Origin: Caprella mutica | Lineage: Eukaryota; Arthropoda; Malacostraca; Amphipoda; Caprellidae | Assembly: GCA_947561585.1 (NCBI GenBank) | Contig: CANNZV010002309.1 | Location: forward strand, 62,001-126,000 | Reading direction: 5' to 3' | DNA length: 64,000 bases | Part shown: positions 25,029 through 64,000 of the stretch, piece by piece | Numbering within the stretch: position 1 is the stretch's first letter | How the letters are laid out: the number at the start of each line of letters is the position of its first letter | Position numbers and translations under genes: made by a program | The notes under the pieces: model-generated | Told to the model about the DNA's origin: nothing | The model's database searches: none | What the model saw: only the letters and a program-made list of their open reading frames with translations

Positions 25029-27171
25029 TAAAAGAAGCAAAGAGCGGTTTTCCTGCTCAAGACATGCATGTGACGGTTCACTTCTCTCACTCCAAACAGA
25101 ATTTCTCTCACGGAAAGGGAAAATGAGTTCACTGCAGTGAATGGGAGGTGGAGAGGAAATGTTTGAATATCTCTAAATGAATATTCATACATTGTGATGG
25201 TTGTGTTTATGCATGCAAGGAGCATTGTAGAGTGCTAACAAAAAGAAAGACAGCAATGTGTTATGAACATTGGGAGTCTTAAATGCCTTTTTACTCTTAT
25301 AATAATAACTAATAAAAATGAGTATTTTTATTTTTCCATGACATCAGTTGTAAAAAAGACTTAATAAAGTAGAAGATACACCTAACGTAAGAAAATCTTC
25401 TTTACGCCATTTTAACTTTCAAATTACGTATGAAAATCATAAAATTAATTACCAAATTTCTCAATTCAAATTAATTACCAAATCTCTTATTTCTTTATTA
25501 TTTGTTATTTTTTAAAATAATCCGTTAAAAAATATTTGGATTTTTTCTTATCCAGGTTTGTGATTTTTCTGTTTTGGATATGAAAATTAAACTCCAGCGT
25601 ATTTATTATAATTACATAATATAATTTTATAATATAATTTATTTAAATTATCCGAGGTTTTGAGTAAGAAAGGGACTGTGCGCATATTTTGGTTTGCAAC
25701 AATAACGTCATAAACACAAAAACATGTATTTTAGAGTTATCCATATAGAGATAAAATCATAAAATACTGATTATTTTGGTAAAAAAATCATCATTCTAAC
25801 TCAAAAATGTACCGCTAGAGAGGCTAAATGTCCTAACGATATACCATTAAATGTACGTACATTACAAGTACTAAAATGCCTCTCCTGAAAAATAGCTTTT
25901 AGAAGTTATGACAGTGTTCTCGCAAACAAGCAATATACTTTCGGGTTGATATCTGTTTGCAGGGTCATAGCGCACACCGAACACAATCCTAGTACCGGGT
26001 TCCGAAAATTTTACCTTATATAAGGGCTTGAGAAAGATAAAAAATATTGTATTATTTTATTTTTTCTCAATAAATATTAACCATTATCCATCCATAATAA
26101 TGTAGCATTGACATTGATTTACATTGGTATTTATGTACTTATTCAAAATCAGTAAGTCAATCTTAACCGAAATAATTGTACGACATAGTGAGTAACAAAG
26201 AAGAGGTGCCAACTAAATCACAGTTAATCACACTAGATCTATACCTGCAGTTACGAATGGAAGAGGGAAATGAAGAGGTGATAATAGTAAATGAAGCCTA
26301 AGAGTCTCTAACCTATAACACAAAATCTGAAACCTCGTAGTTGAAGATCATAACCCTATTGCGATCTTCTAAAACTGCAAGTAGTGTCAGTAAAATGATA
26401 AACAATGTAAATAAAAAAATACATCATAATCCAAATTACAACAGTTCGGAACTCCCCCCCCCTCTCTTCCATTCTCCACAGACAGCTTCAGGATAGAGCC
26501 CCTGGTTGTCTACCATATTGTTAACTAATAATTATTTATCAAGTATGTAGAACTAAAACTACGACGCATTGAGAAGCTACAAGAATTACCAAACAGTAAA
26601 AATGACTGTTTTTCATATTTTTATCAGTGAGACATCGTTTTCGACACATGTTGAGCAACCCAGTTGATTTTTAAGGCCGATTTATAGCCGATTTTTGGAT
26701 GAGTACCTAAACATGAATCGGCGTATTGACGATGAATCATCGATAAATATTCGAAGAAGTGTCCGTTTTATCCAAGATTTTTCGTATAAAATAAGGCAGG
26801 ATGATTTAAGACACTCTCTTAAATTTTATCTGGCAAGCAGTGACACACGCTGTTGTCTGAACACGGCAGAACGTTTTTACAGTGTGCTGCTTCCAGATTC
26901 TGTCAGTTTCAGGAAAATGACTGCTTGGTAATTCAGGAGAGAAAATACTATATCACTAAAACAACAAAATAAACTTAAATGATATTATGTGACGCATTTT
27001 ATTAAAAGTCAATCAATTTCAATCTTCTACCAACAATAGTTCAAGGCACACGAATATTTGGGAAGTAAAATGCAGGCAGATTAACTGGTTGGTAGTTCGA
27101 GTGCTAAGTCCCTTGTAATATCTTTAATTAAGGAGAATCTGAGCACATTAGGGATGTGAAATCACGACATA
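25029..27171. other. Non-coding DNA 3' of the 70-bp satellite
   Basis: Nothing recognisable. A 78-codon open frame at 26695-26931 (+) has no identifiable domain. Short C-run at about 26455. Confidence 0.35.
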
Positions 27172-43626: not shown

Positions 43627-46600
43627 TCACTTCTTCTTTCCAGGAGTTGTCTTAACAATGACCGTTTTCTCAACGACTCTACCACTAGGATAAGTTGTTG
43701 TTTCAGTAGTTTTTTTCACTTTCACGGGATCGGGTTTCGCTTTCACGGGAGCGGGTTTTGCTTTCACGGGAGCAGGTTTCGCTTTCACGGGAGCAGGTTT
43801 CGCTTTCACGGGAGCAGGTTTCGCTTTCGCGGGAGCGGGTTTCGCTTTCGGCTTGGGGGACGCCTTTTCTTTACCACAATCTGAAACAGACGGAATTAAG
43901 TTAATAAAATGGTTAATAAACTTCTTAAAGACTGAGAAAACTTCTTCATAGGAAATAATATTTTTGAATATAGTTGTACATAACAGAAATACGGACTAAC
44001 ACGTCTTTGGCAATCTAGGAACAATTACACTTGTTTTAATGCCTTACACTTATTTTATTGCAGTGTGCTTAAAAAGATGTGGCATGCAGAGAGACCTTTA
44101 CAGATGCGATATGGCTATACTGAGGAACCCTATTGGCATCATATCTTTGAGTCAGTGCCCGGACAGCTCACCGCTGGATAATTCACACCCGTACAATTCG
44201 CTGCCGGACAATTCACCTTGCGACTCGAACTGTTGTAATATGAATTGAATATGTATTCCTTTTTTCCTATTAACTATGCTAATCATTTTTCTAACTCTAA
44301 TAGCCGTTTTTGAAGATAGCTCTAGGGTTATCGTTTGCTCGTGTCAACCCACATCGCTCAGTCATCCCGGTCCACCCAGCGCCATCCCAGCCTATCCCCA
44401 CACTCTGCCAGCATAGCCGCTGCAGCAACCGGGTCTCGTCATTAATATATAGGTCCTAGTTTTGTCTGTACGTGTCCTGGTGCTGTCGGTTTGATAAATA
44501 ACATAAGTCAATTGGGAGGTTTTTGCGTCGATATGGTGATATTAAGTGTGTAGAATAGGGTGGGCCAAAAAAACAACATTTTGGAAATTACTTATGGAAT
44601 AGTGATATAAAGTTGATATGACAAGTAAAGGTACGTGTACTGAAATTTGAGTGAATTCTGACATGATTAACAGTTGCCCCCAAGCGATTCAATTATCAGA
44701 AAAGTAACATTTTTGGTGATTTTTACTACATTTTGGCAAAAAAACTCACAAACTCTAAGTTTTTATCATTTAGAATAGGAAGATAGCTTGAGAAGAGCAA
44801 ATTTTTATGTTTGTGCCGGAAAATCAGACCGGGGCGACGATGTTTACAGTTGTCCCCATCCCTCCAAATTGTTCGAATTTAGGCACCGCTGGAGACTGTA
44901 GTCAGTGTAGTGCTCCACACTTATGGAGGTCTGGTGCTCAATGAAGAACATAATAAGGAAATTTACATACATACTTATTGATTAATAAACCAACATTACA
45001 ATATTTGGGACACTTAGTGACTCAAAAAAGTTGACAAAGCGAATTGCATGGGTTATTATCCAATAGTTGAAATCCAAGTAAATTCGAAATTTTTGCAATA
45101 CGAAAATATTGATAAATGATTTTATAAAATGAAATAAATACAATTCACAAAATTATTTTGATAATTAGATTACTTCTATCTTATCACAATAGCAGCATGA
45201 TTGCTCTAGAAGCCAAATTTTAAGAGAAATATTGTAATACTAATATATTTTACAAAAAAAGTGCTCGGGGCAACTCAAAAGTTTCAAATATTAATCTGCA
45301 ATTTTGCAACTTGTGTTTTTTCATAACGTGCCAACTAATTTTATCTATTCCACAGAAAAAAACAAAATCGAATATGACAAAATTAATGGGAAAATATCAT
45401 TTTGTACAAAATTTCAATTGTTTTGGAGCAACTCAAAAATATCCATAAATGGCCTGGAAATTAGCATGCAATATTCTTTTATATCGTATCAACTTATTAT
45501 AACTATTCCATATGAAGATTGAAGATTCTGAAGTTTGTCCGAAACCCCTATTTTTTGGCCCACCCGCATACCCTAGCAGAAATTTGTTAGTCCGTAGTTG
45601 GGAAATTCTTCGTCGAGTCAATTTGTCTAGTGTGTCTTCAGTTTGATCGTTGTCTGGGGCATTGAGTATTTTATTGTCTGGTTATTTTCGGTAAATCTCC
45701 CTCTACTGCAGCCTTATGACTGGTCTTTAGTCGGGTCTGTATGGAGTCTGTGCTCTGTGGGGCCTGTGGGCCCGGTGCTGTCGTGCTATTATTTTTGTTG
45801 TTGAATATCTTCTGTTTCATGTAGCGTGGGTGGGTAAGTTGGTTAGTCAGTTTGTGCAGTGGGTGGTCAGTCTACTTCGCTCTCATCACTCTTTACTTTT
45901 CCTAAAGTCAGTCGCAGTCAGTAAGTTGATAGTTTTTTTATACCTTTGTCAGTCGTTGTCTTTGTGTGTTCATTGAATGTCAGTTTAGGTTCTAGTGTCA
46001 GTAAAAGTATATAAGGATTTAGGATTGTGTCGTCAATCTTTAGGGAAAGGGTCTTGCTGTATTCTGCAGAGTCAGCAGCTGTGAATAGTGTTTTATGATT
46101 TTGTCAGCGTATAACATAAGGTAGCTGTCTATATTCCATTGTACAATCTGTCGCAGGTAAAGTTGTAGTCCTCGTTTTGCAGTTTTGTAGTCGAGATGTG
46201 ATGAGTAAAGTGTGCTATTTGAATAATTGTTTCGTGAATGAGTGAATATTTGTGTAGATGGTGAAGGCCTTGCGAACTTTAACGTAGTTGGTTATGTATT
46301 TCATGAAGATGGGTGGAATAGCAATATTGTGTAGTTTGTGTATGAGTGATTGAATGTTTACTGTCTCAAATGCTTTGCTCATGTCTAGTGATTTTGCAAT
46401 TGTTCTGTGATGATAGTTTTTGGTTGACCCATTGTTGTCTATAGTCGGTAGGTTGCTCGTAATGTAAGGGAGTATAATTTTGATGGGTTTTATGTTTGTG
46501 TCGTCAGGTCCGGTTGAGTTTCTGTTTTTACTCGGATTCGGTGCTGCGATTTTTTGGTCTTAGGTGATATTTAGGTCTGTTGTTTGTAGTTTTGCCGTCT

Positions 46601-47420
46601 TATTGTTTATTCGTCCGTTTCTTGGTTTAGTCATGCGTCTGATTATGTTGGTGAATTGTTCAATAAATTGGCATGCTATCTTATTGAGAAATAATGCTTT
46701 ATGATGTTAATGCTGTTAGGTCCTCGGTTCTGACGGTTATGGGCCCAGTATCGCAAAGATGCTCCTTCTATAGGTTCATAATTATCATTATTCCAACATT
46801 CACTACCTTAGGTATATTATGGTTTGTTACCATATAGTTAGGATTGTTTGTTACGTCAACCCTCTATTTATGTGGCTATCACAATGAGATGGCGATTTTA
46901 TTAATAAAATGAGTAATTTGACTCTAACTTGATTTTATTAAACTAAACTTACTTTGGATTTTGATGGTGATATCTGTCTCTGAAACAAAAAGAAATAAAT
47001 GAATAAATAACTGGATTGGAAACAGTCTCGACTGGATACGGGAGATTTGGATATAATTTAGCTATTTAACACTAATCTATAAATGTGGTTGAAATAATTA
47101 CTAAAATAATAGTTATAATGATAGTGACTCTTTTCTTTGATAGTACATCATCACAGTGACTCTTTTCTCTGATAGTACATCATCACAGTGACTCTTTTCT
47201 CTGATAGTACATCATCACAGTGACTCTTTTCTCTTATAGTACATCATCACAGTGACTCTTTTCTCTGATAGTACATCATCACAGTGACTCTTTTCTCTGA
47301 TAGTACATCATCACAATGACTCTTTCTACTTACTTGAATCCGAAGGCATTTTTATTGTTGCAGAATTGACACAATTGCACTGATTAGAAGACAGATGAGG
47401 TAGGAACTGTAGACGTGGAC
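43627..47420 (-). CDS. Small lysine/proline-repeat protein, three coding exons, function unknown
   Basis: Read on the minus strand. Exon 1 is 47420-47334: about 71 nt of 5' UTR, ATG at 47349, coding MPSDS plus one base. Exon 2 is a 27-nt micro-exon, 46979-46953 (TDITIKIQ in the middle). Exon 3 is 43880-43627, ending in TGA. Each acceptor is TTTCAG or TTTTCAG, both donors are GTAAGT, and both introns are phase 1, so the reading frame joins without adjustment into 97 residues. There is no signal peptide. The middle is six KAKPAPV-type units (one PAPA, four PAPV, one PDPV), strongly basic. The tail has TTETTTYPSGRVVEKTVIV and a final PGKKK. A non-coding exon must lie further upstream, because 47420 is preceded by an acceptor. 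The protein is not recognised; the basic PAK-like repeat could bind nucleic acid or another polyanion, which is a guess. The intron between exons 2 and 3 hosts a LINE relic and a DNA element; the other intron holds a 32-bp minisatellite. Confidence 0.75.
44558..45565. mobile_element. Unclassified DNA element with GGGTGGGCCAAAAAA ends
   Basis: About 1.0 kb bounded by inverted GGGTGGGCCAAAAAA at both ends, within the second intron of the small K/P-rich gene. Flanks GAATA and GCATA could be a 5-bp target duplication with one mismatch. The inside is AT-rich with scattered TTGCCCC / GGGGCAACTC motifs and no open frame. The superfamily is not identified. Confidence 0.55.
45700..46690 (-). pseudogene. 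Decayed LINE reverse transcriptase
   Basis: On the minus strand several separated frames encode pieces of a non-LTR reverse transcriptase. STGPDDTNIKPIKII lies near 46515-46465 and LDMSKAFETVNIQSLIHKL, the ...D.SKAFD.V block, near 46395-46335. LMLYADKII, a damaged YADD box, lies near 46120-46095, and LEPKLTFNEHTKTT from the post-catalytic region lies near 46000-45960. Stops and frameshifts are frequent and the second Asp of the active site is Lys. The order on the minus strand is correct for a LINE. The clade is not assigned. It lies in the intron of the small K/P-rich gene, in the same orientation. Confidence 0.75.
47124..47322. repeat. 32-bp minisatellite, about 6 copies, intronic
   Basis: Unit GTGACTCTTTTCTCTGATAG followed by TACATCATCACA. 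It lies in the first visible intron of the small K/P-rich gene. The same monomer fills 63062-64000 in the paralogue's intron, after the same flanking sequence. Confidence 0.95.
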
Positions 47421-47422
47421 CT

Positions 47423-48496
47423 GAAAAAAGTAAAGTTATTATGAAAGTAACAGCATAAAAATAATAGCATAAAAATCACAGTTTCCATAATTTTATTACA
47501 GATAAGAAATAAAAGGAAAGAAGGACCAGTAGATGACCACAACGAAGACAAACAAGATGAATTCGATCATCCATTGGCACTGAATTTTCCACTGGAAAAA
47601 CGAATGGTAGCACTTCTTAGAGACCGAATGGAGAATGGGGAGCGTAAAATTAGAGCGGAATACAAAGTTCCGGTGAATCCATAGATTTTCTGACCGTTCT
47701 GAAGGGAAAGAGGCACACAGAACCCCAAAAATAGGAGGATGGAAAAATGCGAATTTGTCTCTTATAATATGCAGCCAAGGCTTGAAAATGTTGGAGAAAG
47801 GTGAGATAGGCATTAGTTAAGTATTTAAAAAGTGGGGGCCATCTCATCCCCTTCATTTATGGGGACAATAAGGGTTCGTTCTAACGGTGGGTGAGATAGT
47901 CGTCCGCATGCATCCAGTGGCGATGCGTAGTGAAGAGATCTATGTCCGCTGCAATACCGCCATGTGGACAGCGCCAGATTTGGGCGACTTTCAGAGGCCA
48001 AATATAATTGAAGACAGAGCCAATGGACTTTGGTACCTGGACATAGTTCGGGCTGTGACTTCTGGAAGTCATATCCAGGAAGATGGTGGATTATTTGGCT
48101 GTGGTTTTGAACCATAGGTGTGTACTGTGTAATCTTTGAATGGTAAAGAGAGGGTCCAGGTTTTTTTCTGTTGTAGGTATAATTAAGGTGATGGAAATTT
48201 TTTGGGACAGAGAGACCTATCAGCAGGTTAAGGTACTGTTACATTTGTGAATGTAGTAAATATGTCACAATATGAAAGAGTGCCGACAGAATCGGATTGG
48301 GAAGAAGGGACTTGGAGAGATAGAGATTGAAGAGGAATGGGGAAAGGACGTCCTATTTAGCTAGAAGTTGTCCGGTTAGTTAGTGCTTAAAAATGATAGT
48401 AGTGTAGGGAACGGAAATAAAGAAGGCAAAGAGACATAAATTGTAATCTTGACAAGAAACAACATCTTCAAGAACTTCGACGCAGTGTATATGAAG
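47423..48496. other. Upstream region of the small K/P-rich gene, no recognised gene
   Basis: Less AT-rich than its surroundings between 47500 and 48120. Open frames of 63-105 codons occur on both strands, but none has a recognisable domain and they overlap in conflicting frames. It may hold an upstream non-coding exon or promoter of the gene, but none could be identified. Confidence 0.35.
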
Positions 48497-49660
48497 GAAG
48501 GGTGCTGGTTTGTCAGTCTTCAGGATAGCAATTACAGAATATCTCTTCTATAAAGAAGGAAGAACAATAATGTCGCATTCAATGATGGGCTAAAGTGGCC
48601 ACACAAGGCCCTGATAGAGGTAAAGTGAACCAAGATATGCTACTGCTCCTGTGGTGTAGAATCATGGAATATTCTTTCATCAAGACATTATTCTTCATAT
48701 GGTTATACATGCCTATAGAGAAACATTGCTATACAGGGTGTCCCTTATATTGTACCTATTGTTCCATATTTTAAATTTAAATAACCTCCTGAATATCTGT
48801 TCGATTTGAATTCGGTTGGTTTTAAGACAGTCTGAAGTCTTCAGAATTTTTTATTTAGGTTTATATTCATCCAAAAAAATAATATCTATAATAAATATAT
48901 TTTTATAATAACCCAATAAAAGTATTCCTTATAAAAGATCTTTTTTAAATTGAGACAGCTCTCTCTCCTTCAAACTACAGAAAACTTCTTCATTCACTTA
49001 CCGCTATGGAAAAGTGAAATATGAACCAATGGCCGAAGATATTTTATGCTCTGGGTCAGTCCTTCGTCAAAGTCTCGATGTTTCAAAACCTGCAAATGGA
49101 CCGACTTCATTAAAATTGAATTAATTGATACTTATTCGTCTTAGGAAATTATTTGTGTATCTATTATTTGTGATCCTAGGAATGGTGATAGGTTAAAGTT
49201 ATAAAAATAAAGACTTTTAATAGTTTATTGAATAAATAAAGGGTCGGTCGGATTTTCTCAAATTTCTCAAAACAATACAACGTATTATTATAGTCAGAAA
49301 GATTAAATATTTTATCAAATAATTAATTTTTGGTCTACTATCTTTTTTAAATGGACTTATATAGTTATATCAAAGAAACTATTGCCGATATTAATCTAAA
49401 TTATCTGAATTCAAATATCACAACTCAAGTTACAATTTTTTGGTCCTGGGAAGGTTATGCGGTACACAACTGTACACTCTACATACCTACATTCATTAAC
49501 AAATATGAATATACAATTATACATATTGCAGGCTGTCAGACACACATACAAACATACATACATGTCCTTTCTTGTTCGTATGCATACATATGTGAGTATG
49601 TATATTTATATACTAATATACTATAATATATATACCATCACGCATTCAAAATGTTGTATT

Positions 49661-50780
49661 AAAATATTAACTTGAATGATAAAATATTAACTTGAATGAT
49701 AAAATATTAACTTGAATGATAAAATATTAACTTGAATGATAAAATATTAATTTGAATGATAAAATATTAACTTGAATGATAAAATATTAACTTGAATGAT
49801 AAAATATTAACTGTAATGATAAAATATTAACTTGAATGATAAAATATTAACTTGAATGATAAAATATTAACTTGAATGATAAAATATTAACTTGAATGAT
49901 AAAATATTAATTTGAATGATAAAATATTAACTTGAATGATAAAATATTAACTGTAATGATAAAATATTAACTGTAATGATAAAATATTAACTGTAATGAT
50001 AAAATATTAACTTGAATGATAAAATATTAACTTGAATGATAAAATATTAATTTGAATGATAAAATATTAACTTGAATGATAAAATATTAACTTGAATGAT
50101 AAAATATTAACTTGAATGATAAAATATTAATTTGAATGATAAAATATTAACTTGAATGATAAAATATTAACTTGAATGATAAAATATTAACTGTAATGAT
50201 AAAATATTAACTTGAATGATAAAATATTAACTTGAATGATAAAATATTAATTTGAATGATAAAATATTAACTTGAATGATAAAATATTAACTGTAATGAT
50301 AAAATATTAACTGTAATGATAAAATATTAACTGTAATGATAAAATATTAACTGTAATGATAAAATATTAACTTGAATGATAAAATATTAACTTGAATGAT
50401 AAAATATTAACTTGAATGATAAAATATTAACTTGAATGATAAAATATTAACTTGAATGATAAAATATTAACTGTAATGATAAAATATTAATTTGAATGAT
50501 AAAATATTAACTTGAATGATAAAATATTAACTGTAATGATAAAATATTAACTGTAATGATAAAATATTAACTGTAATGATAAAATATTAACTGTAATGAT
50601 AAAATATTAACTGTAATGATAAAATATTAACTGTAATGATAAAATATTAACTTGAATGATAAAATATTAACTTGAATGATAAAATATTAACTTGAATGAT
50701 AAAATATTAACTGTAATGATAAAATATTAACTGTAATGATAAAATATTTACTTGAATGATAAAATACTAACTTGAATGAT
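49661..50780. repeat. 20-bp minisatellite AAAATATTAACTTGAATGAT, 56 copies
   Basis: Exact 20-bp period. Variants AACTGTAATGAT and AATTTGAATGAT occur in runs, which shows local block duplication. It belongs to copy 1 of the segmental duplication. Confidence 0.97.
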
Positions 50781-51734
50781 CTTCATTCATGATCAACATT
50801 TTCAAAGCCTGTGGAAGAATGTGTACTAATTCTATACGTTCGTAAGAAGTGCATAGGCGATTGCTTCATGGTTGCCAGTAGTTACAATAAATGTTACCAT
50901 GTGTTTTGATTACAATAAGCGTCATGGGAAAATTAAATTGAGCCTATTGTGAATAATGGAAATGATATATAATGAATGACTATATTTTGATATCAATCTT
51001 ATGAAATATTTAAAAGTTTATTATATACGACAATCTGGTAAATAGACTTTATTTAGCATCTGATTGCGGATAGAGTTATTAGGTTTAATGATTGAAATCT
51101 GTCACCCATTTTGAAGAAATAGTTAGGTACAAAATGCACTTTTCAACTCATGTTTAAAATTGTTAGGATTTAAATGAACAAATTAGACAGTCAATTTTGT
51201 GAGAGTAATAAACTAGTTAAGTAATTTGGAATTGTGAGAAAGATATTTAATTAATATAATGTAACTTGCTTTTATATTCAGGGACATGCCTTGTTTCTTA
51301 GCGTGGTCAGCTGAAACTGATATACATCATTTCCCTTCAAAGTACCTAAGTAGCATGATTAAAATAATCACGATACCATATGCAACAACACACCTCCTAT
51401 TTAACTAATTTCCTAAAGTTTTATATCTTTAATTCATACACCAAACTAACCTTAGCAATCAATTGAATGTTAATAGAGCACTCTAGTGGCACACACGCTG
51501 TCACAACCGCAAAAGTTGCCACAATGAACGTACATACGCAAGCACGCATCAACTGTGTTGCTGTGAACCACCGCCAGGCTTTGTTTCTCAAGGTTGGAAG
51601 GATGATATGAACATCTACTGCTAATCAGGTTTAGGTACCACTATGCATTGCTAACTGCATTTACTGCATATGTTTTAGCTCGTAGATTTAATGATGACGG
51701 GAATACTTGTCAGCAAATATAAATATTTTTAATT

Positions 51735-51853
51735 GGTCGACAGACGTTACGTCGACACACGTTTCGTCGAAAGACATTTCGTCGACAGACATTTCGTCGA
51801 CAGACATTTCGCCGACAGACATTTCGTCGACAGGACGTTTCGTCGACAAGACG
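51735..51853. mobile_element. Solo left inverted end of the GTCGAC tandem-repeat-TIR element
   Basis: About eight units of the 15-bp GTCGACAGACATTTC motif preceded by TTTTTAATT, matching the left end of the 54165 element. It has no right-end partner here. It was left by the segmental duplication, whose breakpoint cuts this array. Confidence 0.8.
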
Positions 51854-54268
51854 ACAAGGGTGCTGGTTTGTCAGTCTTCAGGATAGCAATTACAGAATAT
51901 CTCTTCTATAAAGAAGGAAGAACAATAATGTCGCATTCAAAGATGGGCAAAAGTGACCACACAAGGCCCTGATAGAGGTAAAGTGAACCAAGATATGCTA
52001 CTGCTCCTGTGGTGTAGAATCATGGAATGAATATTCTTTCATCAATACATTATTCTTCATATGGTTATATATACCTATATAGAAACATTGCTATAAAGGG
52101 TGTCACTTATATTGTACCTATTGTTCCATATTTTAAATTTAAATAACCTCCTGAATATCTGTTCGATTTGAATTCGGTTGGTTTGAAGACAGTTTGAAGA
52201 CTTCAGAATTTTTTATTTAGGTTTATATTCATCCAAAAAAATAATATCTATAATAAATATAATTTTTATAATAACCCAATAAAATTATTCCTTATAAAAG
52301 ATCTTTTTTAAATTGAGACAGCTCTCTCTCCTTCAAACTACAGAAAACTTCTCATTCACTTACCGCTATGGAAAAGTGAAATATGAACCAATGGCCGAAG
52401 ATATTTTATGCTCTGGGTCAGTCCTTCGTCAAAGTCTCGATGTTTCAAAACCTGCAAATGGACCGACTTCATTAAAATTGAATTGATTGATACTTATTCG
52501 TCTTAGGAAATTATTTGTGTGTCTTTAATTGTGATCATAGGAATGATGAAAGGCTAAAGTTATAAAAATAAAGACTATTAACAGATTATTGAATAAATAA
52601 AGGGTCGGTCGGATTTTCTCAAATTTCTCAAAACAATACAACGTATTATTATAGTCAGAAAGATTAAATATTTTATCAAGTAATTAATTTTTGGTCTACT
52701 ACCTTTTTTAAATGGACTTATATAGTTATATCAAAGAAACTATTGCCGATATTAATCTAAATTATCTGAATTCAAATATCACAACTCAGTTACAATTTTT
52801 TGGTCCTGGGACGGTGATGCGGTACACAACTGTACACTCTACATACCTACATTCATTAACAAATATGAATATACAATTATACATATTGCAGGTTGTCAGA
52901 CACACATACAAACATACATACATGTCCTTTCTTGTTCGTATGCATACATATGTGAGTATGTATATTTATATACTAATATACTATAATATATATACCATCA
53001 CGCATTCAAAATGTTGTATTAAAATGTTAACTTGAATGATAAAATATTAACTTGAATGATAAAATATTAACTTGAATGATAAAATATTTACTTTAATGAT
53101 AAAATATTAACTTGAATGATAAAATATTTACTTTAATGATAAAATATTAACTTGAATGATAAAATATTAACTTGAATGATAAAATATTTACTTTAATGAT
53201 AAAATATTAACTTTATGATCTTCATTCATGATCAACATTTTCAAAGCCTGTGGAAGAATGTGTACTAATTCTATACGTTCGTAAGAAGTGCATAGGCGAT
53301 TGCTTCATGGTTGCCAGTAGTTACAATAAATGTTACCATGTGTTTTGATTACAATAAGCGTCATGGGAAAATTAAATTGAGCCTATTGTGAATAATGGAA
53401 ATGATATATAAAGAATGACTATATTTTGATATCAATCTTATGAAATATTTAAAGGTTTATTATATACGACAATCTGGTAAATAGACTTTATTTAGCATCT
53501 GATTGCGGATAGAGTTATTAGGTTTAATGATTGAAATCTGTCACCCATTTTGAAGAAATAGTTAGGTACAAAATGCACTTTTCAACTCATGTTTAAAATT
53601 GTTAGGATTTAAATGAACAAATAAGACAGTCAATTTTGTGAGAGTAATAAACTAGTTAAGTAATTTGGAATTGTGAGAAAGATATTTAAATAATATAATG
53701 TAACTTGCTTTTATATTCAGGGGCATGCCTAGTTTCTTAGCGTGGTCAGCTGAAACTGATATAAATCATTTCCCTTCAAAGTACCTAAGTAGCATGATTG
53801 AAATAATCATGATACCATATGCAACAACACACCTCATATTCAACTAATTTCCTAAAGTTTTCTATCTTCAACTAACCTTAGCAATCAATTGAATGTTTAT
53901 AGAGCACTGTAGTGGCACACACGCTGTCACAACCGCAAGAATTGCCACAATGAACGTACATACATACGCAAGCACGCATCAACTGTGTTGCTGTGAACCA
54001 CCGCTAGGCTTTGTTTCTCAAGGTTGGAAGGATGATATGAACATCTACTGCTAATCAGGTTTAGGTACCACTATGCATTGCTAACTGCAGTTACTGCATA
54101 TGTTTTAGCTCGTAGATTTAATGATGACGGGAATACTTGTCAGCAAATATGAATACTTTTAATTGGTCGAGAGACGTTACGTCGACACACGTTTCGTCGA
54201 AAGACATTTCGTCGACAGACATTTCGCCGACAGACATTTCGTCGACAGGACGTTTCGTCGACAAGACG
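51854..54268. repeat. Segmental tandem duplication, copy 2
   Basis: Direct repeat of 48497-51853. It starts at GGGTGCTGGTTTGTCAGTC fused to a TIR fragment and ends inside the left TIR of the intact 54165 element. Confidence 0.9.
53021..53218. repeat. 20-bp minisatellite, about 10 copies (duplicate of 49661 array)
   Basis: Same AAAATATTAACTTGAATGAT unit with a local variant AAAATATTTACTTTAATGAT. Much shorter than the array in copy 1. Confidence 0.95.
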
Positions 54269-54484
54269 TTTCGTCGACAGATGTTTCGTCGACAGACGTT
54301 TTGTCCACAGACGTTTTGTCCACAGACGTTTTGTTGACAAACGTTTCGTCGACAGACATTTAGTCGACAGACGTTTTGTCGACAAATTTTCGTAAAGGGG
54401 ATATTGACACACTCTAATGTTTCAAAACATGTACTTTAACAGAATAATGTATCAAACGATAAAACTACAAAATAGAATAATGGT

Positions 54485-54994
54485 GGTTACTATTCAGTAG
54501 TCCGACGCCCCAGTAGTCCGACACCCGATTAGTCCGACGCCCCATTAGTCCGACGCCCTATCAGTCCGACACTTTTGTAGTTTATTACTGATTTAACAAA
54601 AAATATATGTATATCGCGAGGCGTGCCGCCCCCTGAACCCCCCTGCCAGGTCATTAAAAAATCGTGTACAGTACAACAAACTAGCGGATACAACAAACTA
54701 CATTAAATGATGAAATCAAGTGAGGGATTGCATTATAAATTACTATTAAAAATAAAGTAAAATAAAAGACTAATATAAAATTTAATAAATAAAAGAAATG
54801 AAAAATAATTATATTATTTAGATTATTTATCAATTGAGTATACCTATTTAATCCTATTTTTCATTTTAATCAAGAAATAAAGCTAACAATAACACAGAAA
54901 GATGGAACTGTCGGACTTTTGGGGCGTCGGACTAATGGGGCATCAGACTAATGGGGCGTCGGACTAATGGGGCGTCGACTATTGAGTAGTCCCC
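54485..54994. mobile_element. Nested element with AGTCCGACGCCCCATT-type tandem-repeat ends
   Basis: Flanked by ATAATGGT on both sides (54477-54484 and 54995-55002). The ends pair as GGTTACTATTCAGTAGTC and GGGGACTACTCAATAGTC. Both continue into inverted arrays of AGTCCGACGCCCCATT (about five units left, four right). It is inserted in the left TIR of the 54165 element. The centre contains a C-rich tract (GCCGCCCCCTGAACCCCCCT at about 54627), i.e. G-rich on the minus strand. No coding capacity. Confidence 0.85.
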
Positions 54995-55002
54995 ATAATG
55001 GT

Positions 55003-55837
55003 AAGGAGGAAAACAATTAAATAAATTACTATCGTTTCTCTACTTTAATACTAAACCGAAACAACTCAATAACACCAACTTATTTTGAAGTAATTTGAAA
55101 TATTGTATATTTAAAGACAAAACTAAAAAAGAAATATATCGCGCCAAATAATGAAATAATTGAAATCTAAATGACTGTAACTACACACGAAGAGCATTCT
55201 TAAATTTAATTCTTTGTCTATAATTGTAGCCTTGTGTCACAACTGCCTATTAGTATCATGCCGTGTTGGTTCGGGTAAAGATGTCTTTTCGAGTACTTAG
55301 AGAATATTAATAATAATATATTAGTTCTACAATTTAAAGTAATAAACTCATATTTTTCTTGGAGTCTGGAGAATATGTTTGACAATTTTTTCTTACAGGA
55401 TAAAAATTCGAAAATGGGATACCGTTCGACAACCTTGAACTTTTTCTCTTTTAAAGTCAACTACTTGTTTCAAAGAATCACTTTTTGGTAAAACAATAAC
55501 CTGAAATATCGATAAACATTCAACGGTTAGTTTATTATATAAAATCTTGCCATTCAATCTAGGATTAACATTCAATTACCGAACACTCACAGTAGTCGAA
55601 CAGTGGGCATTTACCAACTGACAGTGACTTGTCAATTACAAATCGGACGATATAAATATTATTAATATGAAACGTAAATTATTGAGAGGAAGTTGTTTTA
55701 TTTTGTTAAAATCACAAACGTAACTTGACCAAAAATTATTAAAATACTTTAAAATAATTTGTAATTATTGAATAGTTTTTATTTATCATTAAAGTAGAAA
55801 ACGATTTTAATATATTAAATAGTTTTCCTCCTTTATT
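55003..55837. other. Interior of the 54165 element
   Basis: AT-rich DNA without a transposase frame; open frames of 60-80 codons on the minus strand are unrecognisable. Confidence 0.45.
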
Positions 55838-56572
55838 CTTCCATTCTGTAATTTTATCGTTTGATACATTATTCTGTTAAAGTACATGTTTTCTAACATT
55901 AGAGTGTGTTAATATCCCCTTTACGAAAATTTGTCGACGAAACGTCTGTCGACGAAACGTCCGTCGACGAAACGTCTGTCGACGAAACGTCCTGTCGACG
56001 AAAAGTCTGTCGACGAAACGTCTGTCGACGAAACGTCTGTCGACGAAACGTCTGTCGACTAAAAGTCTGTCGACGAAAAGTCTGTCGACACCTTTTAATT
56101 AACTCTTATATCAAGTTTGAATAGTGGTATCGATAGCTCTATAAAATACTATTCAATTATCATTTATTTAAGGCAGAAAATTGAAATAACATTAAAAAAT
56201 TTTTTATCATTATTTTAAAGAATAAGAGTTTTCTGTTTTTTGTTTCTTAGGTTCATCCCATCAGACTGTCCTGTTAGACATTTTAAATATTTTGAACCGT
56301 TGCAGCTAAGTTTATTTCGTCAGAGTAAATGTCAATTACGTTAATTAGTTAATTATAGCTAAAGTTATTTTCACAGCGTTATTATAAATTACCATTGTTA
56401 ATATTATTGACTCAAGAAGGTGCATTTAATCTTGTTTTCAATTCAATACGAAGAAATTAGATAGTGTCGAGATAACAATCTTTTCTTGGTATTTTCTGAT
56501 GGCTTCGATATTTTCTGAGAATTTCAGTGTTATCTTCAACAGATAAAAAATTACGCAACACTAAAATTGATT

Positions 56573-57904
56573 GAGAGTGATAGTTATGAGTGATAGTTAT
56601 GAGAGATAGTTAAGAGTGATAGTTATGAGTGATAGTTATGAGTGATAGTTATGAGTGATAGTTAAGAGTGATAGTTATGAGTGATAGTTAAGAGTGATAG
56701 TTAAGAGTGATAGTTAAGAGTGATAGTTATGAGTGATAGTTATGAGAGATAGTTATGAGTGATAGTTATGAGAGATAGTTAAGAGTGATAGTTATGAGTG
56801 ATAGTTATGAGTGATAGTTATGAGTGATAGTTAAGAGTGATAGTTATGAGTGATAGTTAAGAGTGATAGTTAAGAGTGATAGTTAAGAGTGATAGTTAAG
56901 AGTGATAGTTAAGAGTGATAGTTATGAGTAATAGTTATGAGTGATAGTTATGAGTGATAGTTATGAGTAATAGTTATGAGTGATAGTTAAGAGTGATAGT
57001 TATGAGTAATAGTTATGAGTGATAGTTATGAGTAATAGTTATGAGTGATAGTTAAGAGTGATAGTTATGAGTGATAGTTAAGAGTGATAGTTATGAGTGA
57101 TAGTTAAGAGTGATAGTTATGAGTGATAGTTATGAATGATAGTTATGAGTGATAGTTAAGAGTGATAGTTAAGAGTGATAGTTAAGATTGATAGTTAAGA
57201 GTGATAGTTATGAGTGATAGTTATGAGTGATAGTTATGAGTAATAGTTATGAGTGATAGTTAAGAGTGATAGTTATGAGTGATAGTTAAGAGTGATAGTT
57301 AAGAGTGATAGTTAAGAGTGATAGTTAAGAGTGATAGTTAAGAGTGATAGTTATGAGTGATAGTTAAGAGTGATAGTTAAGAGTGATAGTTAAGAGTGAT
57401 AGTTAAGAGTGATAGTTAAGAGTGATAGTTATGAGTAATAGTTATGAGTGATAGTTATGAGTGATAGTTATGAGTAATAGTTATGAGTGATAGTTAAGAG
57501 TGATAGTTATGAGTAATAGTTATGAGTGATAGTTATGAGTAATAGTTATGAGTGATAGTTAAGAGTGATAGTTATGAGTGATAGTTAAGAGTGATAGTTA
57601 TGAGTGATAGTTAAGAGTGATAGTTATGAGTGATAGTTATGAATGATAGTTATGAGTGATAGTTAAGAGTGATAGTTAAGAGTGATAGTTAAGATTGATA
57701 GTTAAGAGTGATAGTTATGAGTGATAGTTATGAGTGATAGTTATGAGTAATAGTTATGAGTGATAGTTAAGAGTGATAGTTATGAGTAATAGTTATGAGT
57801 GATAGTTATGAGTAATAGTTATGAGTGATAGTTAAGAGTGATAGTTAAGAGTGATAGTTATGAGTAATAGTTATGAGTGATAGTTAAGAGTGATAGTTAT
57901 GAGT
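56573..57904. repeat. 13-bp minisatellite AGTGATAGTTATG, about 102 copies
   Basis: Units AGTGATAGTTATG, AGTGATAGTTAAG and AGTAATAGTTATG. The arrangement of variants, including the rare GTTAAGATTGATAG (57181 and 57688), repeats at 507 bp (39 units), showing a recent block duplication. Confidence 0.97.
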
Positions 57905-59647
57905 TACTATTACAAATAATAATATCCACCTTTTAGGTATCGAAAATAAACTGTAATTACATGTATTTGTATTTAAATTTTAAAATAATATATTTTGTCG
58001 GTGTGAGGCGTGATGTAAAATATAATCTTAATATTTACACTCCATTTATACATTTACATCCACTCTGTACATGGACATTTGCACTTCAAAACAATTTATT
58101 TTTTCAGTTTAATCATTACGTTCACAATCCATCATTATTTACGGTAACACATCCAGCTGTCACCTACAACCTCTAAAAGTAATTTAAATAAAATAGTTAG
58201 GATAATTTTCAGAATCAAATATAATGACAACCATCAATGTACTTCTTATAAGCACTAATAACATGTATTATCAGAATAAACTTTTGAAAATGGATGATTT
58301 CACAACTGTTGCATTCCTATGCGTCATTATCATTTAAACTGATGAATACCAATTTAATTAGATCCAAATCAACCGAATATCTTCTGTATGCCGAACTATT
58401 TCAAATTTTAACAAATTACTCGAAAACCTAAGCTTACTATGTCAAATATTTTATTTAAGAAATGCTATGTTTTAGAGAAGTATATGTAAAAAAGAAAGTA
58501 CTTTTAAAATTTCCTATGTTCTAAGAAAAGTTAGTTGCTGTATTGTAGGTAGATAATTTTGTACCTATTTTAAATGATTTTAACTTTACAGAGCTGGCGG
58601 TAAATAACTTGACGCCAATGGTGGCACTGGTTGTGACAGACCCATAGCTGTTTTTATCCGTATTTCCGGCTTTTATCAGGTCTAATTGAATGAATAGTAA
58701 AATTATCCTAAAATTTTAACATTTATTTGCCTTTGCATAAAAAGAAAATAGCAATTGAACAAAAAAAGACACATAAAATGATCACTTCTACCAAGGTCAG
58801 AATCAACTTCAAGTGAATCATGCAAACAATGATTTTTTTTTCATTATCCACGATAAGCCTTGTAAAAAATAGTGTAAATCGACTTTAGTAATTCATTTTC
58901 CAGTTGGAAAACAAAAGAAATGATACTCTAGGCAATAATACTAGAAATTTAATTTCTATACATGAATGGTGACAGAGACCCATTTTACCAATATTCCAAT
59001 AAATATGCTGGAAAATACCTTTTAGGGTCTGATCTTCTCATAGCAGGCTAAATTGCATCTACTTAAAAGGTACTGAGAACATAATTATTCAGGATTATTT
59101 GTCAAACAATAAAGTTTGCGCAGACCCAGTGGCACCTCTGTAAGGTTGCCCCATAAGCGAGGGACTGCTCCCTTTCTAATAGTATTACATTAGCATATTT
59201 TGTACCAACTAATTTCTGTGAGCATTACAATAAAATATAAACACTGATGATTAAATTCTTTTTTAAAATTTAGTAATTTGAAATATCACAAAAGTATTCG
59301 GAAATTAGTGAAATAAATTACTTATATAGGCAAATATACGGCAACTAGTGTACTTTCCCGTTAAAAATAACAGGTCATCATCAAAACCAATTTATTTCCA
59401 ATTATTAGGTTACTTTTAATGAATTCAATTAGAATTAAATTTTCTGCATAGTCTAATTTATTTTATAGATAAAATATATTTAAAAATTGAATAAAAACAG
59501 GATATTTAAATATCAAGTCAATATATTCCCGTGCGTATCATAGTTACATTCTTCATGTTTAATACCCGTCGTGTAAAAGCGGACACCAAATAAATAAATA
59601 AATAAACACACTAAGGAAATTATTAGTACAGAAGATTGTTATTTCCA
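57905..59647. other. Non-coding DNA
   Basis: No gene or structured repeat is supported in this AT-rich stretch. Confidence 0.35.
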
Positions 59648-59882
59648 CATTCTTATTTTTACCATTTGAATCTTAAAAATGAAAACATTTAATGGTTGAT
59701 ATCGCCAGGAATTTAAGGTTACAAAGTATAACATTCTCCTCTAATTCTACTCTCGTTCAGTTGAAAGTTTTGCCAGTTTTCAAACCTTGTCACACACTCT
59801 CCAATTTAATCGAATGAGTCACAAAAAGTTAGATTGGAAACACTTCTCACAAAATGAAAGTTACAATTGATTTTTTTTTAGT
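59648..59882 (-). repeat. About 240-bp dispersed repeat, copy 2 (inverted)
   Basis: Reverse complement of 42566-42805, very similar from ATATCGCCAGGAATTTAAGG through to CACAAAATGAAAGTTACAAT. Confidence 0.85.
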
Positions 59883-61070
59883 TCTATCAACAAAATCCAC
59901 ATTTAATGCAGTTTATTCTTCACATTTTCTGTACATAGGCGAGAATCGGGAGCATTTGACTGTTTTTGTTAAAAACTGAATAATTCGTAAACTAATTCGA
60001 ATTTTACTATTTAAAGATTTCTGTATGTGGATAAATCATTTTACTTCAATTTATATTAAGACTATTTTACAGTTTAAACCTTCATTCGAAAGTTTTAAGG
60101 CAAAATGTTAGAGGGATTCAATTGTCCGAATGCTCCTTCCTAGAGGGACACTTCGGACAAGCTGTGAGGATGATTCGGTCACCATTAAAATGGCTAAAAC
60201 ATTGGAAATTTGGGTAATTAAACGATAGGATTGAATTCGGATCTACTAATTTATTTGAAATAAACCATAAAGACTTGTTATTCACAGTAATAATTCATCG
60301 TATTTGAAATTTTATCATAACTGTAATGATTGAACATTTCCTCCAACAAAATATAGATGAGTAATCACTGTGAAATTATCCTTATATTTAATAGCTATTT
60401 ATCGAAAACAAATGGTATAACTATTTCCTTTTACTTTGGGTATAACTATTTCCTTTTTCTTGGAATTCACCAAAATTAGTAAATTACATCTTAAATATTT
60501 CATCGAATGCTTAAAGTATAGTCCATAAGTGTAGATCTTTCTACACCTCCAATTTCAGCAGCTTTTCTGACAGATAAACCTTTTTGGAATTCATGAAATG
60601 TTTTTTGAATACCTTTTTTATTACGGCCCCTATCAGTTTTCCTTTTATAATGAAAAAGCATGAATACGATCGTCAAACTGTAAAATTAAGACACTGATAT
60701 TAAAAGTTACAACTAATCTTATAAACGAACGCTATTTCAATTAAAATAATTAACTTCAAGTTCAGAATGTCTTTTTTTTTATAAGAATTACTTCAATAAA
60801 TTGTAATGGTGGACTGAATCGGATACAGAGGGAAGGTTCGGACACCGTCCGAACCAACCTAAACAGAAGTGTCCGATTCATCCCAAATGACACTTCAAAA
60901 TTGAAAACATCACCATTTTTCTAATTTCATTTGTATTATTTTTTTAACATCCCAAACATAACATAAAATATTAATATAATTCATACCTTTGAGATTGAGA
61001 ATCAGTTTCCTATTCATATAGTCCACATATACGATCTAATTGAATTCGAAAAAATGGTGACAAGAATTTA
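59883..61070. other. Non-coding DNA, possible further inverted element
   Basis: GGGATTCAATTGTCCGAATG at 60114 and, inverted, AGTGTCCGATTCATCCC ending at about 60888 could be the ends of an ~780-bp element with internal TTCGGACA motifs. The similarity is weak. Otherwise nothing seen. Confidence 0.3.
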
Positions 61071-62198
61071 GCCCAGCGGAATTTTTCCAGGCGGAATATT
61101 GCCCGGCGGAATTTTGCCAGGGTGGAATTTTGCCAGGTGGATTTTTGCCAGGTGGATTTTTGCCTGGCGGAATTTTCCCCGTGGATTATATATATATTTT
61201 TAGCTTTAAATTGGTAGATTGTAAATTAACGGTTTAAAATGTGAGATTCAACTTCCATAAATATGTATAAAACATTTTAATGTAACTTTAACATATTGTA
61301 GTATAACAAGTTTTATTTAACCAATGTAAAATAGCCACGAAATTGAAAATAAAATGAATATGATTTTACTTAAAATAATTACAGAAAATCTTATAAATTG
61401 GACTATTATATATTTAGACAAAAGTTTAGTTTAAAATAATATTATATGATTTGCTTTATTCAAAATAGTGTAATTTAGTATTCTTAACTGTTGTTTGTAA
61501 TTAACTTACTACTTTTTTCACCTGTACAGTACTTCGTGACGAGATATGACTATATGTTCATTAATATGTTCAATAATTTCATTAATGATTTCATAGTTTT
61601 CAGTCTTACATTAAGTATTAATTTTTTCTTAAATAATGATATCTTTTCCACGTGAACTTAATATTATCTACGCCATTGTGAAAGGGATAAGACAATAGCT
61701 GTAATAAAGCAAACTTCAGGAACCAACTGATTACAATGAATGAATCTTCATCTTACTTTTTCAAGTCGCATAATACCATTCATAATAACTGTTAAATTGT
61801 AACAATTATACAGTTTGTTTCTTAAATTATTGAAAATGTTAAAATATTGTTTGTTAGGTTAACATTACTTTTTTCAATTACGGTGATAAGTGAATTCTAC
61901 AATAGTGTTAGAATATAAGTGAATGTATGATGTTCAGTAATTATCTTCAGTAAATTCAAAATTCATTTTATTTAGATTTCCGTGGCTATTTAATATTAGT
62001 TAAATAAAGTTAAAAAAATGAGATTATAAAATTTAATCTCACATTTTAAACTTTTAACTTACAATTTACCAATTTAAACCTAGAAATATATAATCCACGG
62101 GGAAAAATCCGCCGGGCAAAATTCCGCCTGGCAAAATTCCACACTGGCAAAATTCCGCCGGGCAATATTCCGCCGGGCAAAAAAAAAATTTCCGCAAT
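61071..62198. mobile_element. Element with tandem-repeat inverted ends (GGCGGAATTTTGCC unit)
   Basis: The left arm 61071-61183 has about seven GGCGGAATTTTGCCAG-type units and then CCCCGTGGATTATATAT. The right arm 62090-62198 is the inverted counterpart (ATATATAATCCACGGGGAAA, then CCGGGCAAAATTCCGCC units). Unique inverted sequence continues inward (AAATTGGTAGATTGTAAATT and TTACAATTTACCAATTT; AAAATGTGAGATT and AATCTCACATTTT). No transposase frame. Outer edges and target duplication are blurred by an A-run. Confidence 0.8.
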
Positions 62199-62396
62199 TT
62201 TGCAAAGGTAAATAAATACAAAGTTTCAAGAATTCATTTAATCATCATTGCCATCAAAACCAAAAAATCAATAAGAGCAGTACCACATTTTCGGACCAGT
62301 TAGGAACATTTACATTTTATTTTAATCGGTTACCATGATAACTGCATTAATAGGAAGAACATATATGGATTTAGGAAGAGTGATCCATAGTCAGAA

Positions 62397-64000
62397 CTAC
62401 CTCTTTACAGTAGTTGTCGTAGTGTAGACATCTCTTTCGACATATCTTCCGGTAGGAGTATAATAGGATTCACGCTTAACCTGCTTCTTGACGGTAACGG
62501 TTTTCGCTGGACCAGAATTTCGATTGTAATTGTAAGTCGACATCTCTCCTTTATTATTGTAGCCTCCATTTGTATTATAGTAACCTGAAACCAAAGGAAT
62601 TTAATAAACAAAATGCTACTAAACTTCTTATAAATCTGGGAAATCGTGTTATTAGAAAATAGAAAATTTAGATATAATTTGAATATTAAACACTAATCTA
62701 TAAATGTGGTTGAAATTACTAAAGTAATAGTTCTATCTGACGGTGACGACCCGTTCGCCAAAAACATTTTCGCTGCACGACACTTTTGCCGAAAATTAAA
62801 AAAACACTTTACGTTATATATATAAAGAGATATTGTCCACCTAAGGTTAAGTTAGTGGTCCAGAGGTTTGGGACGGGGGGAGGGGAAGGGGCTCCCTCCC
62901 GTCAGGTTTGGGACGGGGGGAGGGGAAGGGGCTCCTTCCCGTCAGATTTGACAGTGACAAAGTGTATACTTTACTGTTTTTTACTGTAAAATAAGTATAC
63001 CTCATTTAGGTAGATAATTGACATTTTTTCGGCGAAAGTGTCGTGCGACAAATGTGTTTTGGTGACTCTTTTCTCTGATAGTACATCATCACAGTGACTC
63101 TTTTCTCTGATAGTACATCATCACAGTGACTCTTTTCTCTGATAGTACATCATCACAGTGACTCTTTTCTCTGATAGTACATCATCACAGTGACTCTTTT
63201 CTCTGATAGTACATCATCACAGTGACTCTTTTCTATGATAGTACATCATCACAGTGACTCTTTTCTCTGATAGTACATCATCACAGTGACTCTTTTCTCT
63301 GATAGTACATCATCACAGTGACTCTTTTCTCTGATAGTACATCATCACAGTGACTCTTTTCTCTGATAGTACATCATCACAGTGACTCTTTTCTCTGATA
63401 GTACATCATCACAGTGACTCTTTTCTCTGATAGTACATCATCACAGTGACTCTTTTCTCTGATAGTACATCATCACAGTGACTCTTTTCTCTGATAGTAC
63501 ATCATCACAGTGACTCTTTTCTCTGATAGTACATCATCACAGTGACTCTTTTCTCTGATAGTACATCATCACAGTGACTCTTTTCTCTGATAGTACATCA
63601 TCACAGTGACTCTTTTCTCTGATAGTACATCATCACAGTGACTCTTTTCTCTGATAGTACATCATCACAGTGACTCTTTTCTCTGATAGTACATCATCAC
63701 AGTGACTCTTTTCTCTGATAGTACATCATCACAGTGACTCTTTTCTCTGATAGTACATCATCACAGTGACTCTTTTCTCTGATAGTACATCATCACAGTG
63801 ACTCTTTTCTCTGATAGTAAATCATAACAGTGACTCTTTTCTCTGATAGTACATCATCACAGTGACTTTTTTCTCTGATAGTACATCATCACAGTGACTC
63901 TTTTCTCTGATAGTACATCATCACAGTGACTCTTTTCTCTGATAGTACATCATCACAGTGACTCTTTTCTCTGATAGTACATCATCACAGTGACTCTTTT
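62397..64000 (-). CDS. Paralogue of the small K/P-rich gene, last exon plus intron, 5' end outside window
   Basis: The visible exon is 62584-62397 (minus): acceptor TTTCAG, then 61 residues and TAG. It begins in phase 1, as does the last exon of the 43627-47420 gene. The protein starts YYNTNGGYNNKG, has a basic AKTVTVKKQVKRES stretch and ends YYTPTGRYVERDVYTTTTTV plus KR. The tail pattern (P-[ST]-G-R-x-V-E-[KR]-x-V) matches TYPSGRVVEKTVIV of the other gene. The KAKPAPV repeat is replaced by a Tyr/Asn/Gly-rich stretch. The adjoining intron is homologous to introns of the other gene (CACTAATCTATAAATGTGGT in both) and holds the same 32-bp minisatellite. Any micro-exon and the ATG exon would lie beyond 64000. 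Function unknown. Confidence 0.7.
62756..63062. mobile_element. About 310-bp element with CGCCAAAA...CACGACACTTT ends in the paralogue intron
   Basis: Left CGCCAAAAACATTTTCGCTG and CACGACACTTTTGCCGAAAA; right, inverted, CACCAAAACACATTTGTCGC and CACGACACTTTCGCCGAAAA. GGTGAC occurs at both edges. It sits exactly between the conserved intron sequence and the 32-bp array, a position uninterrupted in the other gene, which supports insertion. The centre carries the G-rich duplication listed separately. Confidence 0.65.
62864..62943 (+). repeat. Two 40-bp G-rich units with G-quadruplex potential
   Basis: Each unit contains TTTGGGACGGGGGGAGGGG and AAGGGGCTCC, that is four or more G-runs of three or longer, in an otherwise AT-rich window. 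Confidence 0.8.
63062..64000. repeat. 32-bp minisatellite, at least 29 copies, continues past window
   Basis: Same GTGACTCTTTTCTCTGATAG-based unit as 47124-47322, nearly homogeneous, reaching the window end. It lies in the intron of the paralogous gene. Confidence 0.97.

Follow-up and report, generated by a model that had tools for sequence, protein, structure and literature searches.

A candidate family of small spliced crustacean genes with a shared predicted hairpin tail and divergent middles

Results

Two small genes lie on the minus strand of the window, the 64,000-nucleotide stretch analyzed here, which corresponds to bases 62001–126000 of a 218,718-base contig in the 903-Mb assembly of Caprella mutica. 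Gene 1 is contained in the window from its first coding exon to its stop codon, and gene 2 is represented by its last exon and part of the preceding intron. Across the contig, 19.9% of the sequence is masked as tandem repeats or N runs.

Several other features share this sequence. A multi-exon carboxylesterase/cholinesterase-like gene occupies window 1–4770 on the plus strand, and a rough join of its exon translations best matches decapods (Eriocheir at 36%, Procambarus, Cherax), mantis shrimp and krill, as would suit a malacostracan-like crustacean. Open reading frames near-identical to this gene, on the opposite strand and outside the window (contig 47572–53606), probably form a second copy. 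The window also holds a 70-bp tandem array of ~108 copies (17485–25030) and a tandem duplication (48498–51848 and 51856–54279) with two long aligned pieces that are 95% and 97% identical. A repeat of 1.56 kb, 94% alike between L053 and contig C2309 190454–192016 and accompanied by inverted partial copies, is probably a DNA transposon.

The gene 1 coding sequence joins 47349–47334, 46979–46953 and 43880–43627 on the minus strand into a single open frame of 297 nt, or 98 residues, that begins at the ATG at 47349. Its two introns, 354 nt and 3072 nt long, both run from gtaagt to cag. Hence, the original prediction of three in-phase exons with consensus splice sites is borne out in its coordinates, its sites and its one open frame. 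Exon A (47334–47420, 87 nt) is bounded by an acceptor before 47420 and a gtaagt donor after 47334. It holds the end of a first frame, ORF1, reading VHVYSSYLICLLISAIVSILQQ with its stop TAA at 47354–47352, and the start of a second, ORF2, which opens at the ATG with MPSDS and leaves the exon in phase 1. The micro-exon (46953–46979, minus strand) spans 27 nt, is phase 1-1 and adds nine residues. The last exon (43627–43880, minus strand) encodes KAKPAPV repeats, built from a 21-bp unit in 6.5 copies (43849–43714), followed by a predicted hairpin tail, TYPSGRVVEKTVIVKTTPGKKK, and the stop.

Intron 2 of gene 1 (43881–46952, minus strand) contains a decayed reverse-transcriptase remnant at 46559–46218 (PF00078, E 3.3e-6, 27.4 bits, under the 29.6-bit cut-off). 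By eye, the same intron also shows a 15-bp perfect inverted repeat with arms ~1 kb apart (45565–45551 and 44572–44558), possibly a short DNA transposon. A charged open frame (47502–47681, plus strand) sits behind an acceptor-like CAG and runs antisense to the sequence immediately upstream of exon A; a Pfam search with the longer frame 47451–47681 returned no match.

The gene 2 last exon (62397–62584, minus strand) is open in phase 1 for 61 whole codons plus a stop and encodes a Tyr/Asn/Gly-rich part followed by a predicted hairpin tail, YYTPTGRYVERDVYTTTTTVKR. Upstream in its intron lies a minisatellite with a 32-bp unit (63062–64000), which continues to an N run of 2,926 bases that begins 474 bases past the window end. 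A search of the contig with exon A of gene 1 found gene 1's own copy only; the first exon of gene 2 is therefore either within the N gap or absent.

Sequence comparison confirms that gene 1 and gene 2 are related, through the last exon, the end of the last intron and a stretch of intron 1. In a six-frame scan of the 218.7-kb contig, the pattern P[STAD]GR-x-[VI]-[EDQ] is confined to two places, the tails of gene 1 and gene 2, and 2000 shuffles of the gene 2 exon never reached the tail score between them. The pair gives a BLASTP E of 0.001 over a short tail match. Searched DNA-wide, the tails match weakly, at a tblastn E of 0.02–0.05 in the contig, where a chance-like Tyr/Asn-rich match to gene 2 scored 0.011. 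Within the introns, 47045–47117 of gene 1 intron 1 and 62666–62735 of gene 2 (both minus strand) are 86% identical over 73 columns, and the last-intron ends are 72% identical over 99 columns, running three bases into the last exon. The P-[ST]-G-R tail, the phase-1 acceptor of the last exon and the related intron sequence had all been proposed as shared features, and each holds. So does the proposed difference between the middles, KAKPAPV repeats in gene 1 versus a Tyr/Asn/Gly-rich stretch in gene 2.

The two shared intron stretches adjoin in gene 2 and lie ~3.1 kb apart in gene 1. This ~3.1-kb gene 1 segment contains the micro-exon near its upstream edge and then the reverse-transcriptase remnant, and both of its edges fall at similar AATTATATCTAAAT-like words. 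Such edges would fit a segment either inserted into gene 1 or deleted from gene 2.

A shared intronic minisatellite had also been put forward. The 32-bp unit is indeed present in both introns (6.3 copies in gene 1 intron 1, 47123–47325), but it has 170 matches in the genome, with more than 30 other contigs among the matches listed. As a repeat dispersed genome-wide it provides no gene-specific evidence, and we rejected it as a family marker. At seven other loci of the minisatellite, two of them overlapping, the flanks lack the shared intron stretch except for one weak 26-nt match. The unit had no match in viral contigs and none in prokaryote contigs.

The 27-nt exon of gene 1 is likely real. 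In a scan with simple site matrices and with thresholds taken from the micro-exon itself, no other cassette of 9–60 nt on the two strands of the contig (437 kb) reached its scores at both sites. Lowering the thresholds by 3 and 2 bits yielded 39 cassettes, of which three have a length divisible by three and an open phase-1 frame. From the site densities, ~0.02 cassettes are expected by chance in the 3.4-kb span, and 0.006 with a length divisible by three. The same densities predict ~2 for the whole contig, so the one cassette seen there is no excess. Joining exon 1 straight to the last exon also preserves the frame. The micro-exon originally described keeps its consensus sites, its open frame and its divisible length, and phase alone is no proof of it.

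These chance counts, the frame that survives skipping and the location of the exon in a segment missing at the matching place in the gene 2 intron would all suit a chance decoy, with exon 1 spliced directly to the last exon to give 89 residues. We consider such a decoy somewhat unlikely, given that the only cassette with both site scores in 437 kb falls within a gene 1 intron, on the correct strand, and that its 27 nt are divisible by three and open. Separately, an origin of the micro-exon in a repeated transposon was rejected: in a genome search with 46560–47060, all 14 other matches begin beyond the micro-exon, which lies outside the intron part that has matches elsewhere in the genome.

The genes had been presented as a pair. 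Two related genes are present, but at least a third locus has the first exon. Searching the genome with the DNA of 47326–47800 produced a second match, at 84%, on contig C5228 (23391–23500). The exon there reads ...TAATGCCTCCTAAAC then GTAAGTAGAAA, with the donor and phase of gene 1 and 3 nt fewer after the ATG. Later exons of this gene 3, the last exon included, were not found in C5228.

Over the 71 nt before the ATG, gene 1 and C5228 show 13 differences. In frame 0, which is not the frame of the ATG, 19 of 22 residues agree (VHVYSSYLICLLISAIVSILQQ versus VHVYSPYLICLLISASVSILQHQ), compared with 13 of 23 in each other frame, and agreement at the frame-0 level was reached in any frame by 73 of 10000 randomizations. 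The third-position bias of frame 0 is weak by itself (8 of 13; 0.10 once corrected for the three frames). Its hydrophobicity was matched by 106 of 5000 random stop-free frames. The frame-0 stop adjoins the ORF2 ATG in both copies, as TAATG in one and TAA-AA-ATG in the other, and the 22-residue ORF1 peptide has exactly two genome matches, gene 1 and C5228. Because the 71 nt are better conserved in a frame other than that of the ATG, exon A may contain both the end of a small hydrophobic ORF and the beginning of the following one. The first exon of gene 1, as originally described, does start its frame; a second, hydrophobic frame appears to end in it as well.

Exon A might instead be an ordinary first coding exon for one protein, the 71 nt being plain 5' UTR and the frame-0 pattern chance or a minor upstream ORF. 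An upstream ORF1 exon was not found in a donor scan of the 8.4 kb before the C5228 exon (best 25/48, under the null of 27/48). Nor did one emerge when all 29.8 kb of C5228 were compared with the gene 1 contig, which returned exon A plus matches taken for repeats and not tested one by one. One such match, between window 59345–59644 and C5228 21768–22071, is 91% identical and has the expected order and strand, but additional, oppositely oriented copies of it exist in C5228. The missing upstream exon and a third-position bias that is not significant alone after correction favor the plain UTR, which we regard as a serious possibility, if not our preferred one. Against it stand the frame-0 residue identity, both in the randomizations and relative to the other frames, and a hydrophobicity that few random frames attain.

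Exon A could also close the coding sequence of a distinct upstream gene, its hydrophobic tail being, for instance, a membrane or GPI anchor, with the ORF2 gene using its own promoter inside or after exon A. The frame-0 stop in both copies and the hydrophobic end would agree with such an arrangement. We find it improbable: no conserved upstream exon was recognized when the gene 1 contig was compared with the 23.4 kb preceding the C5228 exon, although exon A itself is 84% conserved, and the donor and phase downstream of the ATG are conserved too.

Searches with the gene 1 and gene 2 last exons addressed further copies. The 83-residue last exon of gene 1 has at least 181 genome matches, and those listed besides itself are mainly in lysine/proline repeats. 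Six of these loci were checked as candidate last-exon relatives, and all six proved by translation to be unrelated repeat arrays; at least three further listed matches, on C476, C813 and C572, extend into the tail. The 61-residue gene 2 exon and the 35-residue gene 1 tail matched only themselves in the genome. As neither last-exon query finds its sister, other distant copies are possible, and three loci are a lower bound.

No homologue or known family was recognized in the protein, Pfam, NCBIfam and PDB searches, all of which have little power for short proteins. In the protein database, one search gave two candidates, neither at E ≤ 10, and another gave none; these searches are word-seeded and weak for short proteins. 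Pfam returned nothing for the gene 1 protein and only MgsA_C for the gene 2 exon, at 13 of 27 bits. Among NCBIfam models, the gene 2 last exon had no match and the gene 1 last exon two at ~5 bits, none over the curated cut-off. Two PDB candidates were taken for composition and set aside, a single chain for gene 1 (Piercer of microtubule wall 1 protein, E 0.0097, in the lysine/proline part) and an ADP-ribosyltransferase for gene 2 (E 2.7). Against viral contigs, ten stretches fit a gene 2 exon pattern and none was confirmed; the gene 2 region had no match in plasmids. The string PSGRVVEKTV had no occurrence in the literature searched, and literature searches on crustacean micro-exons, exonization, orphan genes and isopod repeats turned up nothing recognized as this gene family. 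In the available part of PMC7062882, 'microexon' figures only as a program option. The kinship and these null family searches together support the initial claim of two related small spliced genes of no recognized family.

A codon-by-codon comparison of the tails found 14 identical residues over 31 aligned codons, seven of them encoded by synonymously changed codons. When these substitutions were placed at random, at least 14 agreeing residues arose in 11 of 5000 trials and at least seven synonymous changes in 192 of 5000, with codon pairs taken from a protein-level alignment, which favors the codon result. The codon changes suggest translation.

AlphaFold2, run without an alignment, predicts a beta-hairpin in both tails, with P-[ST]-G-R as the turn between strands 27–41 and 47–60 of the gene 2 exon and strands 53–62 and 68–77 of the gene 1 last exon; single-sequence hairpins of this kind can arise from composition alone. 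Ten-residue-block pLDDT rises to 90 in the gene 2 hairpin and 92 in that of gene 1; for each model as a whole, confidence is low (mean pLDDT 67.3 and 71.0, pTM 0.35 and 0.25). Outside the hairpins the models are of low confidence or coil, except for a short strand at 15–19 in gene 2. A structure search with the gene 2 model only gave a best E of 0.1 and none at 0.001. ORF2, beginning MPSDS, has its most hydrophobic 11-residue stretch in the tail.

Both loci might be decaying copies or untranslated RNA genes, as the lack of a homologue in the protein searches made and the transposon and minisatellite debris in the introns would allow. We give this little credence in view of the open frames, the synonymous bias in the tails and the hairpin predicted in both.

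Discussion

We favor, at a probability of about 0.6, a small, fast-evolving, lineage-restricted family of at least three loci, in which ORF2 would encode a basic hairpin protein, exon A would also carry the end of ORF1 and gene 1 would contain a cassette exon. This reading builds on the in silico results, namely the in-phase exons, the kinship of the genes, the conserved frame and the predicted hairpins.

From these features we infer splicing, translation, a two-ORF mRNA and a function for the family. The ORF2 product would be short and basic and would lack its own signal peptide. Its middle (the KAKPAPV repeats of gene 1 or the Tyr/Asn/Gly-rich stretch of gene 2) would be variable and probably disordered, and its C-terminus would form a conserved beta-hairpin with P-[ST]-G-R at the turn. 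Hydrophobic ORF1 would additionally end within the first coding exon, its stop adjoining the ORF2 start, and the 27-nt cassette exon of gene 1 would leave the frame open whether used or skipped. In such a protein, the hairpin could act as a shared binding or self-assembly unit and the middle as a changeable spacer. A more specific proposal, which we hold to be doubtful, is a two-ORF crustacean family in which exon A, with its stop-start overlap, serves a hydrophobic micropeptide and then a basic hairpin protein, the middle is replaced outright between copies, and one copy carries a 27-nt cassette within sequence missing from its sister.

In schistosome micro-exon genes (MEG), several short frame-keeping exons form much of the gene, and the products are secreted by way of a signal peptide; here there is one 27-nt exon, no other cassette of equal strength in the contig, and an ORF2 that opens with MPSDS and is most hydrophobic in its tail. 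Gene 1 resembles the MEG described in the available part of the source in its small variable protein without homologues found and its frame-keeping short exon, and differs in having one micro-exon only, an ORF2 with no apparent signal peptide and a crustacean-like rather than a fluke genome (PMC10399815). Aphid bicycle genes likewise combine fast sequence change with a preserved gene structure; those characterized, in the part of the source available, average ~17 exons, with a minimum of five, and almost all internal exons are phase 2, unlike the three coding exons and phase-1 junctions seen here (PMC9168663).

Arthropods have poly- and bicistronic small-ORF genes, among them pri/tarsal-less, sarcolamban and wurmchen1/2 (PMC11475943). 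As far as the available part of that source describes them, the present genes are similar in their small peptides, one possibly hydrophobic, possibly on one mRNA (PMC11475943). PTGxY within the gene 2 sequence TPTGRY is reminiscent of the Pri motif LDPTGQY; unlike pri/tarsal-less, the genes have no LDPTG, with TPTGRY in gene 2 and YPSGRV in gene 1, and the motif falls inside the predicted hairpin of a longer protein rather than in the 11–32-residue peptides of Pri-type genes (PMC11475943). Also unlike the arthropod small-ORF genes, ORF2 is modeled as spliced with a micro-exon, and the use of two ORFs is putative (PMC11475943).

If the genes are transcribed as modeled, sister copies close together on one contig would keep a short fold and swap the remaining protein, and one of them would carry a frame-keeping cassette exon in a segment missing from its sister. 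An exon in which a stop adjoins a start would offer a testable example of two small ORFs joined in one arthropod mRNA.
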